NCBI RefSeq assembly: GCF_029643245.1
Contig: NZ_CP116398.1
Span: 1 to 64,000, forward strand
DNA from: Methylomonas sp. EFPC3
GTDB lineage: Bacteria; Pseudomonadota; Gammaproteobacteria; Methylococcales; Methylomonadaceae
DNA: 64,000 nt
Direction: 5' to 3'
Every line of letters begins with the position of its first letter. Within the stretch, counting starts at the first letter, position 1. Below the pieces are notes generated by a model. The model did not search any database, was not told where the DNA came from, and saw only the letters and a program-made list of their open reading frames with translations. The translations under genes and the position numbers were made by a program. Below are positions 10,724 to 14,254 of this stretch, in pieces.

Positions 10724-10742
10724 TGCGCATACACTGTGCGCA
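10724..10742. promoter_or_regulatory. Candidate ccdAB operator
   Basis: Two TGCGCA boxes (10724-10729 and 10737-10742) flank TACACTG, which itself resembles a -10 element. The site lies 23 bp before ccdA, fitting the autorepression usual for CcdA-CcdB complexes. A Shine-Dalgarno GAGGAA follows at about 10755. Confidence 0.4.
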
Positions 10743-10765
10743 TTAAAAGTACGCGAGGAATAGCC

Positions 10766-11011
10766 ATGCAACCCGCCGTTAACCCGACTGCCCCCAAAAA
10801 AGCCGCCAATCTCAGTATCAACAGCGAGTTATTAAATCAGGCCAAGGCATTGCAGATCAATTTATCCGCTACGCTGGAGCGCGCGCTGACCGAAGCCATA
10901 CGCGACAAGCAACGGCAGCAATGGCTGCAGGAAAACCGACAAGCTATCGAAGACTATAACCAACGTATCGAAACCGAGGGCTGTTTCAGCGATAGCTTGC
11001 GGAGTTTTTGA
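10766..11011 (+). CDS. ccdA: CcdA-type antitoxin
   Basis: 81 residues from the ATG at 10766, chosen over an upstream in-frame start because GAGGAA lies at the right distance. The N-terminal AANLSINSELLNQAKALQI is the ribbon-helix-helix DNA-binding part. The acidic C-terminal tail, ENRQAIEDYNQRIETEG then FSDSLRSF, is the CcdB-binding region seen in CcdA. It neutralises the gyrase poison CcdB and represses the operon. Its stop overlaps the ccdB start by one base (TGATG), the usual translational coupling. Confidence 0.93.
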   Translation: MQPAVNPTAPKKAANLSINSELLNQAKALQINLSATLERALTEAIRDKQRQQWLQENRQAIEDYNQRIETEGCFSDSLRSF

Positions 11012-11322
11012 TGGCGCAGTTCACCCTGTACCGCAATACCAATCAGCAAACCCAGGGCCGCTATCCTTTTTTACTCGACGTACAGAACGATTTTCTCGAT
11101 GCGTTGAAAACCCGGTTGGTGGTTCCTGCCATCAACCTATCCGGGCAGAAGGCCATCACTCATTTGAATCCGGTGTTTGAATACGAACAACAGCAATACC
11201 TGCTAGTGGTGCAGGAAATGGCGGCCATTCCCGCGACTAATCTGGGTGCCAAGGTGACGGAGTTGGCGGCATTGCGGAGCGAGATATTGGCGGCCGTGGA
11301 TTTGTTGATTACGGGGATTTGA
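11011..11322 (+). CDS. ccdB: CcdB-type gyrase toxin
   Basis: 103 residues, near the usual 101. YPFLLDVQNDFLDALKTRLV, the VPAINLSG segment, HLNPVFEYE and the C-terminal AVDLLITGI match CcdB. The last residues are essential in F-plasmid CcdB (WGI) and are TGI here, so the Trp contact is replaced. CcdB traps DNA gyrase on cleaved DNA. In a chromosomal toxin-antitoxin cluster it may stabilise the region or be a plasmid relic. Confidence 0.92.
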   Translation: MAQFTLYRNTNQQTQGRYPFLLDVQNDFLDALKTRLVVPAINLSGQKAITHLNPVFEYEQQQYLLVVQEMAAIPATNLGAKVTELAALRSEILAAVDLLITGI

Positions 11323-11398
11323 TTGGGGAAGGTGTCGCTATCACGAGTAGATTCAATGCCGATTTCCGCACCGGCGGGCCTTATATTGGGACGCGTAG

Positions 11399-11420: not shown

Positions 11421-11441
11421 ATTGGGGGATATTGATTATTC

Positions 11442-11697
11442 GGTGTCGCTATCGCGACGGCTTTTTTAAGTCGGGTCTCGGCCCGACAGCCGAGATACTT
11501 TTCTTTGCTTGTCCAAAGAAAAGTATCCAAAAGAAACGACACCCCATGCCGCTTTGATCCTGCGCTCCGGAGGGTTTGGACGGGGTTTTCGGAAGGGCTA
11601 TCCATAGCCCTCCGAAAACGCGATGCATCCCTGCATCGCCCCTTTCGGGCAAATCCGCCCAAACCCTCCGGTGCTCGGCGCGGCATCAGGGGAGAAA
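11442..11697 (-). repeat. Structured repeat element, copy A
   Basis: Read on the minus strand, this stretch aligns over most of its length with copy B at 12032-12243. It carries successive hairpins: GCGATGCA-GGGA-TGCATCGC (11620-11639), a 15-bp stem with TGGA loop (11585-11619), a 13-bp stem beginning ATACTTTTCTTTG (11495-11526), CTCGG/CCGAG interleaved with GTCGGG/CCCGAC (11470-11494), and GTCGC/GCGAC (11445-11458). Compared with copy B the stem sequences differ but pairing is kept. No open frame is conserved between the copies, so RNA or DNA structure is what is maintained. Confidence 0.75.
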
Positions 11698-11737
11698 ACC
11701 ATTCCAAAATCGAAGTTTATAAATTCAGGATCGGTAG

Positions 11738-11763
11738 GTCCGATTAGCGAAGCGTAATCGGAC
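11738..11763. repeat. REP-like palindrome
   Basis: GTCCGATTA (11738-11746) and TAATCGGAC (11755-11763) pair perfectly around GCGAAGCG. This resembles the dispersed 'ATTAGCGAAGCGTAAT' intergenic palindromes common in Proteobacteria. It lies between the two copies of the larger structured repeat. Confidence 0.6.
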
Positions 11764-11896
11764 GCATGTCATCTCACGGTTTTCAATAATAAAAGACTTG
11801 ATAGCGGATTGATTTCGCGGATCGAGAAACCCGATATTCATGTTGCACATCCAATGAATCCGTTTTAATAAAAAACCTTCAATTCATTTATTTCTT

Positions 11897-12031
11897 TAAC
11901 AGGTTGGTGAAAAACCATATTTCAGACGCTAATTTTGGCCAGCTTAATCAATATATAGTGTCTGAAGCATCATGCTTCAACTAAATACAGACTGAGTTAG
12001 GGTCAAAAATGAGTTTTTCACCAACCTGTTA
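11897..12031. mobile_element. 135-bp MITE-like element with 19-bp inverted ends
   Basis: TAACAGGTTGGTGAAAAAC at 11897-11915 is exactly repeated in reverse complement at 12013-12031. The interior is AT-rich and noncoding, and contains a GAAGCAT-C-ATGCTTC dyad. Perfect terminal repeats around a short core are the hallmark of a miniature transposable element mobilised by a transposase elsewhere. I see no clear target-site duplication. The right end abuts structured repeat copy B within one base. Confidence 0.7.
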
Positions 12032-12243
12032 GCCCGAGAGGGGAGCGGCAGGGATGCCGCTCGTTTTCGGAGGGCTAGGACAGCCCTTCCGAAAACCCTC
12101 GCCAAATCCTTCGGAGCGCAGGATTCAAGCGGCATCCGGGTCGCCTTTTCTTTGGATACTTTCTTTTGGCGACGCAAAAGAAAGTATCGCGGCTGTCGGT
12201 CCGCGAACCGACATTAAAATCAAGCCGTCGCGCCAGCGACATC
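12032..12243 (+). repeat. Structured repeat element, copy B
   Basis: Plus-strand counterpart of copy A, in opposite genomic orientation. Hairpins in order: AGCGGCA-GGGA-TGCCGCT (12044-12061), a 14-bp stem (12063-12096), ATACTTTCTTTTG with its complement (12156-12187), CGCGG/CCGCG interleaved with TGTCGG/CCGACA (12188-12213), and GTCGC-GCCA-GCGAC (12227-12240). Each stem is conserved in shape but not in sequence relative to copy A, with paired substitutions. It sits immediately downstream of the MITE-like element and against the 3' end of vapC. Confidence 0.75.
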
Positions 12244-12251
12244 TTCCTCTC

Positions 12252-12653
12252 TCACTCCAACCAATTCTCCATCAACAACCCCGGCACGCGTGCGAACTCC
12301 CGCAAGTTGTTGCTGACCAGTATCAAGCCATGGCTGCGGGCATGAGCGGCAATGTGCAGGTCGTTGACGCCTATCGGCTGGCCGATTTTCTCCAACGCGG
12401 CGCGTATGCCGCCGTAATGCAGCGCGGCGCTGTCGTTGTAAGGCAATACCTGCAAACGGCTGCAAAAGTCTTCTACCGTGGCGAGATTTCTCGCGGGGAA
12501 TTGGCTTTTCTCGGCACCGTGGATCAATTCGGCCAAGGTCACGGCGGAAATCGCCATGCGGCCGTGATGCCGGTTGAAGGTCGCCAACACCTCGATCGGT
12601 CGTCGCTTAATCACATAGATGACGATGTTGGTGTCGAGCAGGTATTTCAGCAC
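12252..12653 (-). CDS. vapC: VapC-type PIN-domain toxin (intact active site)
   Basis: 133 residues starting at GTG. Acidic PIN residues are all present: Asp in LLDTNIVIYVI, Glu in AVTLAELIHGAE, Asp in GVNDLHIAAHA and the NN/REF segment. VapC toxins are Mg-dependent RNases that usually cut initiator tRNA or rRNA. The GTG lies four bases after the vapB stop, so the pair is co-transcribed. The 3' end abuts the structured repeat. Confidence 0.93.
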   Translation of the reverse strand: MLKYLLDTNIVIYVIKRRPIEVLATFNRHHGRMAISAVTLAELIHGAEKSQFPARNLATVEDFCSRLQVLPYNDSAALHYGGIRAALEKIGQPIGVNDLHIAAHARSHGLILVSNNLREFARVPGLLMENWLE

Positions 12654-12657
12654 GCGC

Positions 12658-12891
12658 TTAAAAGCTCTCGCGCTCGCCTTGCTGCTGGCTAGGTCGTTCG
12701 TTTAGAAAGTCGTCGCTGACGCTCGGACCGTCGAGAAAAAAACTGTCCCAAGCTGCGTCCGCCGGGGCAATGATGCGCTCCTGCCCGACGGCACGAACCT
12801 CAACTTTTTTGACGCTGTCGGGAAAGCGCATGTCGGCGGGTAAGCGCACGGCCTGACTGCGGTTGTTGGTAAATACGGTACTGGTCGCCAT
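12658..12891 (-). CDS. vapB: VapB-type antitoxin
   Basis: 77 residues from the ATG at 12891, chosen because GGAG lies seven bases upstream. An earlier in-frame ATG has none. VFTNNRSQAVRLPADMRFPD is the AbrB/SpoVT swapped-hairpin DNA-binding domain of VapB. The C-terminal DFLNERPSQQQGERESF is the toxin-binding tail. It neutralises the adjacent VapC and represses the operon. Confidence 0.9.
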   Translation of the reverse strand: MATSTVFTNNRSQAVRLPADMRFPDSVKKVEVRAVGQERIIAPADAAWDSFFLDGPSVSDDFLNERPSQQQGERESF

Positions 12892-13052
12892 GGGTGACTC
12901 CGGAGTGCTATATCCAAGGAATATATCCCTGTCTTCACATGACGTCAATCAAGTCCCGTGGTGTGCAGCAAGCGATTGATGCGCTTCGCTAGCGCTCAGC
13001 GGATCCTGTGTTTAGTGCGAAGCGACATTTACAGAACAATTGCGCCGAAAAG

Positions 13053-13466
13053 TTACCGCTCGCTCGCCCAAGCCTCGACCGCCAAACCCTCAATCCGCTC
13101 GAATTCCCGCACGTTATGCGTGACCAAGCGAGCGCCAATCGCCAGCGCATGGCAGGCAATCCACAAACCGTTGGCGCCTATCGGTGTTCCGGCCGATTTC
13201 AGCCGAGTAAATTGGCTGGCGTAGTGCCGGCATAACGCACCGTCAACGGCGTATTCGACCGGGACGATCCGCAGCAATTGTTCCAACTGCGCTAACACCT
13301 TTTCTTTGCGCTGGCTGCGCTCGGCGGCTTTCAACAACTCGGCATAGGTGACGAACGACATGCACAGCCTGCTATCGGCGGGCAAACTATTGATGCGTTC
13401 GGCCACCGTCGGCGGTTTATTTTTGATCAGATAGATCAGCATGTTGGTATCCAGCATGTAGATCAT
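13053..13466 (-). CDS. vapC: VapC-type PIN toxin with catalytic Asp changed to Gly
   Basis: 137 residues. Asp6 (YMLDTNMLIYLI) and Glu43 (VTYAELLKAAE) are present, but the third conserved acid, which is Asp in the xxNDLxIA motif of the neighbouring VapC, is Gly100 here (GANGLWIACHA, codon GGT at 13167-13169). One A-to-G change explains it. Loss of this metal ligand should weaken or abolish RNase activity. The gene is otherwise full length and overlaps its antitoxin by four bases, so it may be a recently inactivated toxin kept with a repressor function. Confidence 0.9.
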   Translation of the reverse strand: MIYMLDTNMLIYLIKNKPPTVAERINSLPADSRLCMSFVTYAELLKAAERSQRKEKVLAQLEQLLRIVPVEYAVDGALCRHYASQFTRLKSAGTPIGANGLWIACHALAIGARLVTHNVREFERIEGLAVEAWASER

Positions 13467-13717
13467 AAAGACTCGCGCTCCTGCATCGGCGCTTGTTCGC
13501 GGGCGTCTTCGAGCAAACGTTCGGCAAAGTCGTCATCGAAATCTTGCAGAACCGCCAACAAGGCGCCGCCGCGGTCGGCCGGCACCGGGTGAATCAGCAA
13601 ATCGCCGTTAGGGCAGCGGCTGATTTCCACTTGGCTAACGTCCAGACGAAATTCCTGCGGAATCCTCACCGCTTGGCTATTGCCGTTTTTGAAGATACGG
13701 GTGGTCAAGGTGGTCAT
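13463..13717 (-). CDS. vapB: VapB-type antitoxin, second pair
   Basis: 84 residues. TRIFKNGNSQAVRIPQEFRL is an AbrB-like DNA-binding domain, followed by EISRCPNGDLLIHP and a C-terminal toxin-binding tail (FAERLLEDAREQAPMQERES). The stop overlaps the vapC2 start by four bases (ATGA). It should bind the mutated VapC2 and autorepress the operon. Confidence 0.92.
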   Translation of the reverse strand: MTTLTTRIFKNGNSQAVRIPQEFRLDVSQVEISRCPNGDLLIHPVPADRGGALLAVLQDFDDDFAERLLEDAREQAPMQERESL

Positions 13718-13893: not shown

Positions 13894-13922
13894 TTGACAG
13901 ATAACTTTGCCCCACCTAAACT
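13894..13922 (+). promoter_or_regulatory. Sigma70-type promoter for the cobalamin riboswitch-nrdAB unit
   Basis: A consensus -35 TTGACA (13894-13899) is followed by a 17-base spacer and TAAACT (13917-13922, four of six -10 positions). Predicted initiation near 13929-13930 is just where the riboswitch homology starts. Confidence 0.7.
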
Positions 13923-13930
13923 CCCTTTCC

Positions 13931-14124
13931 GAGACGGTTCCCCCCGAAGGGGATTAAAAGGGAATCCGGTCGGCGCTTTTGCATTTTTCGCATGATCGCC
14001 GGAAAGCCGGAGCTGCCCCCGCAACTGTAATCGGCGAGTCTTTGTTCAACGATGCCACTGGACGCGAGTCCGGGAAGGCTGAACCGAGGCGGCGACCCGA
14101 GAGCCAGGAGACCTGCCCTCGAAA
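13931..14124 (+). promoter_or_regulatory. Cobalamin (B12) riboswitch
   Basis: The element contains conserved cobalamin aptamer blocks in order: GGTTCCCCCCGAAGGGGATT and AAAAGGGAATCCGGT at the 5' side, GCTGCCCCCGCAACTGTAA, the GCCACTG core, CCGGGAAGGC and the B12 box AGCCAGGAGACCTGCC near 14102-14117. Adenosylcobalamin binding normally lowers downstream expression. The next gene is nrdA, so reductase class Ia should be repressed when B12 is plentiful. That would make sense if a B12-dependent class II reductase exists elsewhere. About 130 bases with possible hairpins separate the aptamer from the nrdA start, room for an expression platform. Confidence 0.93.
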
Positions 14125-14254
14125 CTTCAATCAACCGGGAGCGGGGTGTCTCCGAGGACGATGGCAAGCGTTGCGGGTCGGGCGATTTCGGGTTCGCGCC
14201 GCGCGCCTTTCCGTTGCGGCTTCGCGCTTCCCGCCCAAGAGCAAGGAGAATCGC

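Follow-up and report, generated by a model that had tools for sequence, protein, structure and literature searches.

The attC sites of integrons, which occur once per gene and in direct order, are conserved by structure and are read as folded single strands. Minimal mobile elements, by the definition in the excerpted source, are whole-gene cassettes that differ from strain to strain, lie between the same conserved genes and are exchanged solely by homologous recombination (PMC3898611), and REPINs consist of two inverted hairpin units which, as the excerpt has it, are the likely minimal mobilisable unit (PMC3390384). Dispersed intergenic repeats such as R178 and R200, the former with internal inverted repeats, are described for Pseudomonas fluorescens in the part of the source at hand (PMC2718517). 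Here a pair of inverted repeat arms is described at positions 11438 to 12243 of a 64,000-nucleotide stretch of the genome of Methylomonas sp. EFPC3 (contig NZ_CP116398.1, positions 1 to 64,000 of the forward strand; hereafter the window). The fold of these arms is under selection, judging from the comparison of many family members, and the two copies are tentatively read, at slightly less than an even chance, as the two ends, left and right, of a gene cassette bounded by repeats, whose arms act as recombination ends recognised in folded form.

The two arms of the window, which are visible as the inverted pairs I1, I2, I3, I6, I7, I9, I14 and I15, and the space between them comprise the following parts.

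11438-11691, minus strand: left arm A, complete (nhmmer arm profile, positions 2-257 of 259; included in alignment A2)
11655-11671, minus strand: 5' strand of helix P1, arm A only, absent in B
11620-11639, minus strand: hairpin P2 of arm A, GCGATGCA/TGCATCGC, with covariation
11586-11618, minus strand: hairpin P3 of arm A, with covariation
11567-11583, minus strand: 3' strand of helix P1, arm A
11538-11541, minus strand: 5' strand TGTC of helix PK1, arm A, pairing with GACA at 11510-11513
11529-11536, minus strand: third strand TTTCTTTT of the proposed triple helix, arm A (columns 166-200 and 167-201)
11494-11527, minus strand: stem P4 of arm A with the purine strand CAAAGAAAAGTATC and the loop that holds GACA (inverted pair I7)
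11470-11494, minus strand: interleaved helices PK2a, CTCGG/CCGAG, and PK2b, GTCGGG/CCCGAC, arm A (columns 210-225 and 221-228 covary)
11445-11458, minus strand: terminal hairpin GTCGC-GATA-GCGAC, arm A
11692-12031, no strand: space between the arms, the place of the cargo gene in other copies, with no open reading frame (ORF) of at least 90 amino acids
11897-12031, no strand: miniature inverted-repeat transposable element (MITE), about 131 bp, adjoining arm B on its inner side; its inverted ends TAACAGGTTGGTGAAAAAC are perfect over 19 bp
12032-12243, plus strand: right arm B, inner part missing (profile match 26-253 at 12012-12243)
12043-12062, plus strand: hairpin P2 of arm B
12064-12095, plus strand: hairpin P3 of arm B (inverted pair I15)
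12141-12144, plus strand: 5' strand TCGC of PK1, arm B, pairing with GCGA at 12169-12172
12146-12153, plus strand: third strand TTTTCTTT of the proposed triple helix, arm B
12155-12188, plus strand: stem P4 and loop of arm B, purine strand CAAAAGAAAGTATC (inverted pair I9)
12188-12212, plus strand: interleaved helices PK2a, CGCGG/CCGCG, and PK2b, GTCGGT/ACCGAC, arm B
12227-12240, plus strand: terminal hairpin GTCGC-GCCA-GCGAC, arm B

The folded strand of arm A runs from 11691 to 11438, its outer end TGTCGC starting at 11444. Arm B is without the inner approximately 44 alignment columns including the 5' strand of P1, in the place of which lies the MITE, so that P1 cannot form in B; the first bases of the profile match to B fall in MITE sequence. 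Fourteen further full-length copies of this MITE with 74-100% identity, four of them with 92-100%, are present in the genome. By the profile bounds the space between the arms measures 320 nt, with a GC content of 0.37 compared with 0.59 in the flanks, and the window copy is probably a worn cassette from which the gene and a portion of one arm have been lost. A first-pass annotation of this DNA had described an inverted pair of elements with five hairpins each at 11442-12243, copy A on the minus and copy B on the plus strand. Both copies, now recognised as inverted arms, and the three compensated stems it named are present in the sequence; its extent had to be redrawn, arm A reaching to 11691 and arm B beginning at about 12032, and its hairpin order holds in both arms for P2, P3, P4, the interleaved pair and the terminal hairpin, with P1 not formed in B. 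Overlooked at that stage was that the inverted arrangement represents the two ends of a cassette which usually encloses a gene. Moreover, the swapped T-tract, ATACTTTTCTTTG versus ATACTTTCTTTTG, goes beyond a compensated stem, as the upstream third strand changes along with it.

Three observations concern the immediate surroundings of the pair. A repetitive extragenic palindrome (REP) of the type GTAGGTCCGATTAGCGAAGCGTAATCGGAC is located at 11731-11768, just inside arm A, and in other cassettes copies of this REP lie on both sides of a gene for a REP-associated tyrosine transposase (RAYT). At 11331-11346, 111 nt outside arm A, the sequence GGTGTCGCTATCACGA is a near copy of the cassette tip and perhaps a relic of another end. 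In a genome of the same species, a second right arm follows the first (L067 11030-11280).

The arms belong to a family of repeats of about 255 nt. As a DNA query, arm B finds 44 matches in its own 4.44-Mb genome, several of them partial or self-complementary, and matches in 34 of 37 genomes of the genus, most of which hold at least 20; at the level of the order, 68 of 151 genomes and 22 of 44 genera are reached. A covariance model of the outer 118 nt, R1, which like its alignment A3 holds 54 of the 64 non-redundant arms, detects members in 92 of 369 genomes and 75 of 272 genera of the class (E up to 1e-3), the class being understood in the GTDB sense as gammaproteobacterial including the beta-proteobacteria. 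In the phylum, 46 of 398 genomes match (E 1e-4), 41 of them in the same class with the own genome included and the remaining five weakly and all in one family. Conserved across the class is the outer pseudoknot domain of the arm. Among the listed matches of a scan with exact patterns are genera such as Thiobacillus, Polaromonas, Acidovorax, Vogesella, Silvimonas and Rheinheimera as well as Psychromonas, Luteimonas, Methylobacter, Crenothrix and others. By blastn, no arm match was obtained in plasmid or phage collections, and viral contigs contained a single exact match to one of the two patterns searched. No Rfam 15 family matches over the arms of the window at gathering score, nor, in 14 loci searched at E 0.05, does any cover the outer domain; beside the outer domain of one locus (L198 436-490) a sub-threshold TwoAYGGAY match reaches 37.6 of 43 bits (E 0.021). 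In the open-access literature, with subscription journals and preprints outside the scope, no description of the family was found, and it is rated as a new kind with the reservation that this coverage imposes.

Folding of the arms exceeds that of dinucleotide shuffles, with z scores of -7.7 and -3.8 for the halves of A and -4.2 and -3.0 for those of B, one in 200 shuffles folding as well as the last stretch of B. The comparative evidence was drawn from alignment A2 of 65 arms, composed of 63 of the 64 arms non-redundant at 90% and the two window arms; 165 of 240 arm hits had passed the length and score limits for the non-redundant set. Covariation was assessed by a G-test with average-product correction; the tree-aware null, from 40 simulated alignments, had a maximum of 63.5, and 30 column pairs stand out against it at E <0.05. 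Covarying columns are found in P1, P2, P3, PK1, P4, PK2a and PK2b, in addition to off-register pairs of P1 and P3 and pairs of the T-tracts. P1 shows double changes in 13 of 17 pairs in the family alignment, and both helices of a pseudoknot covary, PK1 in columns 159-188 and 160-187, above every null pair, and P4 in columns 173-208, 180-201 and 181-200. Over all 68 pairs and 4378 cells, 97.4% are paired, with both sides changed in 39 pairs and 600 cells, as compared with 38-47% paired and 9-17 doubly changed pairs when the partner is slid by one to three columns; the structure was derived from the same alignment, which favours it on the cells paired. The conserved core is the outer approximately 110 nt. 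Its fold begins, in the direction from cargo to outside, with an H-type pseudoknot, after which come the two interleaved helices and, in many members, also a terminal mini-hairpin.

The first-pass annotation had regarded the double compensation between the two copies as strong evidence for selected folding. Two copies alone are weak in this respect and it is the large family that supplies the evidence, yet the claim of selection itself stands, as pairing holds across the family against both the tree-aware null and the slid controls. Borne out as well are the statement that no named family matches, in that Rfam finds none over the arms at its gathering threshold, and the proposal of a structured repeat family in many copies, which the covariance-model search recovers in 92 of the 369 class genomes; copies are far from few, and their differences preserve pairing. 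The suggested pseudoknot is supported with respect to the core, which by covariation is of the H-type. For the interleaved CTCGG and GTCGGG helices, both present and both covarying across the family, a simultaneous knot is sterically doubtful: one nucleotide would be the only link across a helix of five base pairs, for which reason PK2a and PK2b are perhaps alternatives, and alternative hairpins are a possible arrangement.

Extra hairpin modules, CAAATTTG...GGCTG...GAAAACCA, are inserted at similar places in several arms, the P4 loop among them, as if the loops tolerated nested insertions.

L027 1667-2083: arm with extra hairpin modules
L027 3473-3815: arm with extra hairpin modules
L027 9599-9941: arm with extra hairpin modules
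L030 6568-6770: arm with extra hairpin modules
L035 4692-4992: arm with extra hairpin modules

The pseudoknot core has a further regularity. The upstream strand of PK1 occurs in the variants TGTC, TGGC, TCGC, CCGC, TGCC, TTGC and CGGC, each with the matching P4 loop, and between PK1 and P4 lies TTTTCTTT in 34 arms (in one case a base short) and TTTCTTTT in the other 31. The former always goes with AAAAGAAA as the purine strand of P4, the latter always with AAAGAAAA. In the anchored register, 65 of 65 arms show a parallel match (T·A, C·G) between third strand and purine strand, 64 of them over the full 8-mer, versus two mismatches in every arm (columns 166-201 and 167-200) in the anchored antiparallel register. 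A parallel match of T·A and C·G is what a pyrimidine third strand would show if it lay in the major groove of stem 2 of an H-type pseudoknot. When sliding is allowed, the parallel run is the longer one in 55 of the 65 genus arms (tie in nine, shorter in one) and in 26 of 43 arms from distant genera (tie in 12, shorter in five), a set from which nine of 53 matches, short antisense ones and one cut-off arm, and one unparsable arm of the remaining 44 were excluded. The mean parallel advantage of these distant arms is 0.58 versus -0.17 for shuffled partners (maximum 0.23 of 2000), and 41 of the 43 reach at least seven consecutive parallel triples, examples being TTCTCTTT/AAGAGAAA, TTTTTTC/AAAAAAG and TTCTTTT/AAGAAAA, compared with a mean of 28 and a maximum of 35 in 5000 shuffles. 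Covariation statistics alone cannot choose the register, as six columns change as one block; on the arm tree the state of the third strand changes 17 times, and 25 times when the tree is built without these columns; intermediates do not occur. Each arm end probably contains a three-stranded helix.

The arms are mostly arranged in outward-facing pairs, with the left arm on the minus and the right arm on the plus strand. Among 134 neighbouring arm hits in loci of the genus, 81 are -/+, 32 +/-, 12 -/- and nine +/+, a count biased by the choice of some loci because a pair was visible in the list. Loci of other genera were not picked for pairs and thereby provide the fairer sample of orientation; here 42 of 46 neighbouring hits, read from match tables with short antisense overlaps left out, are -/+. 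The distant loci used were 29 of 30 from the class search and, in a second set, 80 of 107, that is 56 of 80 exact-pattern loci (the genus and its order mostly left out) and 24 of 27 new ones. From the inside to the outside, the outer end reads A-rich, CC, GTCGC-GNYA-GCGAC, AC, A-rich, as seen in 147 unique ends with exact stem from 152 of 183 arms, the other 31 being without an exact end hairpin. Palindromic targets are not used in excess (76 of 94 junction pairs).

Between the 81 pairs of the genus, ORFs of at least 90 amino acids number one in 48 pairs, two in 18, three or four in five and none in ten, to which the window pair belongs. The cargo is 143-3759 bp long, with a median of 1238, and has a GC content of 0.42 compared with 0.555 in the flanks, lying below the flanks in 76 of 77 cargos longer than 300 bp. 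A library scan of 101 cargo ORFs (E up to 1e-4; the first 25 of 30, 26 and 28 families considered) assigned 16 to the RAYT family, three to IS110, two to an IS3 type and one to an IS481 type, besides families such as NACHT with SNaCT11, KAP NTPase, DUF3644, DUF5677, DUF4357, T5orf172, GNAT, LprI, OmpA, ankyrin and TPR. Several ORFs match models of candidate defence systems, namely PDC-S20, PDC-S19, PDC-S14, PDC-S05, QatA and PifA, and for 13 of 30 cargo proteins scanned singly no Pfam match was obtained at E 0.01. The IS110 members in three cargos look like ordinary insertions and were discarded as candidates, two cassettes of one genome sharing 1272 bp at 99%.

Cargo turns over at several fixed sites, as comparison of the fetched loci shows. 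Sites were defined by orthologous flanks located in these loci, and cargos were grouped by their longest ORF (E 1e-4, 60 amino acids) or a blastn match of 250 nt; the groups of site L027b were not used, two short cargos there being alike yet below the limit. At site L033, 13 genomes with a pair, two of them of one species, hold 12 cargo groups and five genomes are without the element, so that different whole genes are found between the same conserved neighbours. Site L025 holds four groups in five genomes and site L027c four in six, and at all three sites the cargo differs even within one species, where flanks are about 95-98% identical. Arms at the same site and side are more alike across species than other arms (outer part 0.877 versus 0.843, inner part 0.896 versus 0.795), and thus arms tend to stay while genes change. 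In two genomes the L027c site contains no cassette; it carries a collapsed palindrome of about 80 bp, composed of the two terminal hairpins plus PK2b and bordered by other DNA, a remnant that points to a deletion between the interleaved helices.

L120 17354-17519: collapsed palindrome at the L027c site
L126 16132-16243: collapsed palindrome at the L027c site

Loci L075 and L081 contain three cassettes within about 15 kb, with flanks common to many species, a hot region of docks.

On the preferred reading, the arms would be sites at which a trans-acting recombinase or transposase, encoded outside the cassette, recognises the folded single strand. They would let the whole unit spread slowly to new sites and would let the cargo be exchanged more often than the unit spreads. 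The strongest competitor, unlikely but to be taken seriously, is repeat-assisted homologous exchange, in which the arms are ordinary dispersed repeats between which RecA-dependent swaps take place after DNA uptake, as in the neisserial minimal mobile elements, the fold serving another purpose or a selfish requirement of the arms themselves. That cargos differ at conserved sites fits it, and so do the ends of 157 flank-anchored high-identity matches, 49 of which lie inside the arm and 48 less than 150 nt into the cargo, the others before the arm (48) or deeper (12); all arms being similar, this count alone is no proof of arm orthology. Left unexplained by homologous exchange are the outward-facing pairs in distant genera (42 of 46), the at least 20 matches in most genomes of the genus and the strong conservation of the fold at the ends.

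A number of points weigh against a dedicated enzyme acting on folded ends. Recombination between homologous arms could account for the exchange of cargo without any such enzyme, and the ends of matches in or near the arms fit both explanations alike. Besides RAYTs, no recombinase common to many cassettes occurs among the listed cargo families. No 4-6-mer is common to more than one of 76 junction pairs at offsets 0-3, hence no target-site duplication was seen in a test for which 18 of 94 pairs were unusable and whose power is low at offset 0, the flank bases there being nearly fixed; nor did the compared loci contain a clean recent insertion with an exact empty site. Many distant two-arm units are compact, with about 350-450 nt between the outer domains and no gene (six of them, when printed, contained other palindromes), and some neighbouring arms are ++, -- or solitary. 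Turnover has its limits: genomes of one species share cargo at L022, L027a and L030, RAYT1 is kept at L027a in many species, five L033 cargos have a stretch of about 165 nt in common that lies below the grouping threshold, identity of same-site arms is raised only modestly, and for 31 of 73 arms (outer part) the closest arm from another genome shares their site and side. As regards the triple helix, all 65 genus arms and 39 of the 43 distant ones contain antiparallel runs of at least seven when shifted by one base, part of the 17-25 switches may be whole-block exchange between arms, and the mirror arrangement may have no other role than to prevent competition of the upstream tract with P4. Finally, comparative evidence cannot decide between RNA and DNA, and folding as RNA is possible.

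An RNA role would make the arm a 3' untranslated region or terminator module which insulates or stabilises the cargo transcript and blocks read-through from outside, and is regarded as improbable. The helices contain G·T wobbles in 136 cells versus A·C in 17, an excess of the G·U type on one strand that speaks for this role and from which the folded strand is probably the one running from cargo to outside in each arm. The tip, read inward, is a hairpin followed by a T-rich stretch, and the fold is like that of RNA pseudoknots with major-groove triples, as described for the bacterial guanidine-III riboswitch in the excerpted report (PMC5696562). On the other hand, an arm is present at both ends irrespective of gene direction, many two-arm units of distant genera are devoid of genes, and the terminal loops avoid GNRA. 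In the genus, 138 of 147 ends have GNYA and none GNRA; among distant hairpins, C[GNA]G or C[GNYA]G loops make up 30 of 98 as compared with 70 of 2564 for GNA/GNYA in the background, and GNRA one of 98, many of these 98 'terminal hairpins' being in reality PK2b (nine short or cut hits and four of 114 matches of the second set were excluded, and 56 of 154 arms have no such hairpin). GNA and GNNA loops form extraordinarily stable DNA mini-hairpins according to the part of the source available (PMC4686876). On account of these loop types, single-stranded DNA rather than RNA is favoured as the folded substrate.

Least probable is that the arms are large REPIN-like units moved by RAYTs, some of which reside inside cassettes: 16 of the 101 cargo ORFs are RAYTs and RAYTs are commoner in arm-bearing genomes (70 of 92 versus 155 of 277, odds ratio 2.5), but RAYT1, RAYT2 and RAYT3 within cassettes (four copies examined) are bracketed by different REPs of their own, e.g. 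GTAGGGTGGGCAC and GTAGGTCCGATTAGCG, 22 of the 92 arm-bearing genomes, drafts among them, have no RAYT match at 1e-10, and RAYT1 is fixed at one site in many species. The own REPs and the RAYT-free genomes likewise weaken RAYT as a candidate for the mobilising enzyme.

Wider than the reading of the window pair, and distinctly more doubtful, is the proposal that the family constitutes a class-wide system of gene-cassette exchange, undescribed in the literature covered, with outward ends of single-stranded DNA in the form of a triple-helix pseudoknot read by a recombinase, the cargo being single accessory genes with candidate phage-defence genes among them. If true, a second widespread route for swapping single genes at fixed chromosomal docks would exist beside integrons, and its recognition element would be a covarying pseudoknot with a probable triple helix. 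Pseudoknots with a triple helix are mainly known from telomerase RNA and a few riboswitches. It would then become testable which enzyme reads the folded ends, how many of the uncharacterised cargo genes protect against phage and whether pyrimidine triple helices form in the DNA or RNA of living bacteria. Should the exchange turn out to be plain homologous recombination, the comparative evidence for this kind of structure in a dispersed bacterial repeat would still merit testing.

The flanks of the window cassette, 10736-11322 and 12252-13717, carry small gene pairs which by eye resemble a CcdAB-type and two VapBC-type toxin-antitoxin modules. Further downstream, a cobalamin riboswitch (118 bits) is located at 13918-14134 at the start of a long ORF which by eye resembles a ribonucleotide reductase.

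Compared with described systems, integron cassettes, REPINs and DDE transposons each fail on a tested feature. DDE transposons and MITEs share the terminal inverted repeats, TGTCGC...GCGACA, and the target-site duplication is not found. REPINs resemble the pairs in consisting of two inverted hairpin units. However, a RAYT match is missing from part of the arm-bearing genomes, the RAYTs examined are flanked inside the arms by REPs of other types, and the arms differ from REPINs in being much longer and multi-helix, with a pseudoknot core, in carrying genes and in occurring in the 22 of 92 genomes without a RAYT match. R178 and R200 are set apart by description only, the excerpted account mentioning neither cargo nor covariation (PMC2718517). 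With the guanidine-III and telomerase RNA pseudoknots, the arms would have in common the major-groove triple-helix pseudoknot, although here mostly seven to nine consecutive pyrimidine-motif triples, deduced from sequence, would be located at the ends of repeated DNA units. Integron cassettes are alike as small AT-rich, mostly single-gene units of diverse accessory function with structure-conserved ends; instead of one attC, however, each unit here has two inverted arms of about 255 nt (81 pairs), the units are scattered over the chromosome without forming an array, and no integron integrase was found among the listed families of the 101 cargo ORFs, the rest of the genomes not having been scanned for IntI. 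Minimal mobile elements of Neisseria, in so far as the excerpt describes them, likewise place different whole-gene cassettes between the same conserved neighbours (PMC3898611), whereas here a conserved, folded, outward-facing pair of repeats bounds every cassette, at many sites and in many genera.

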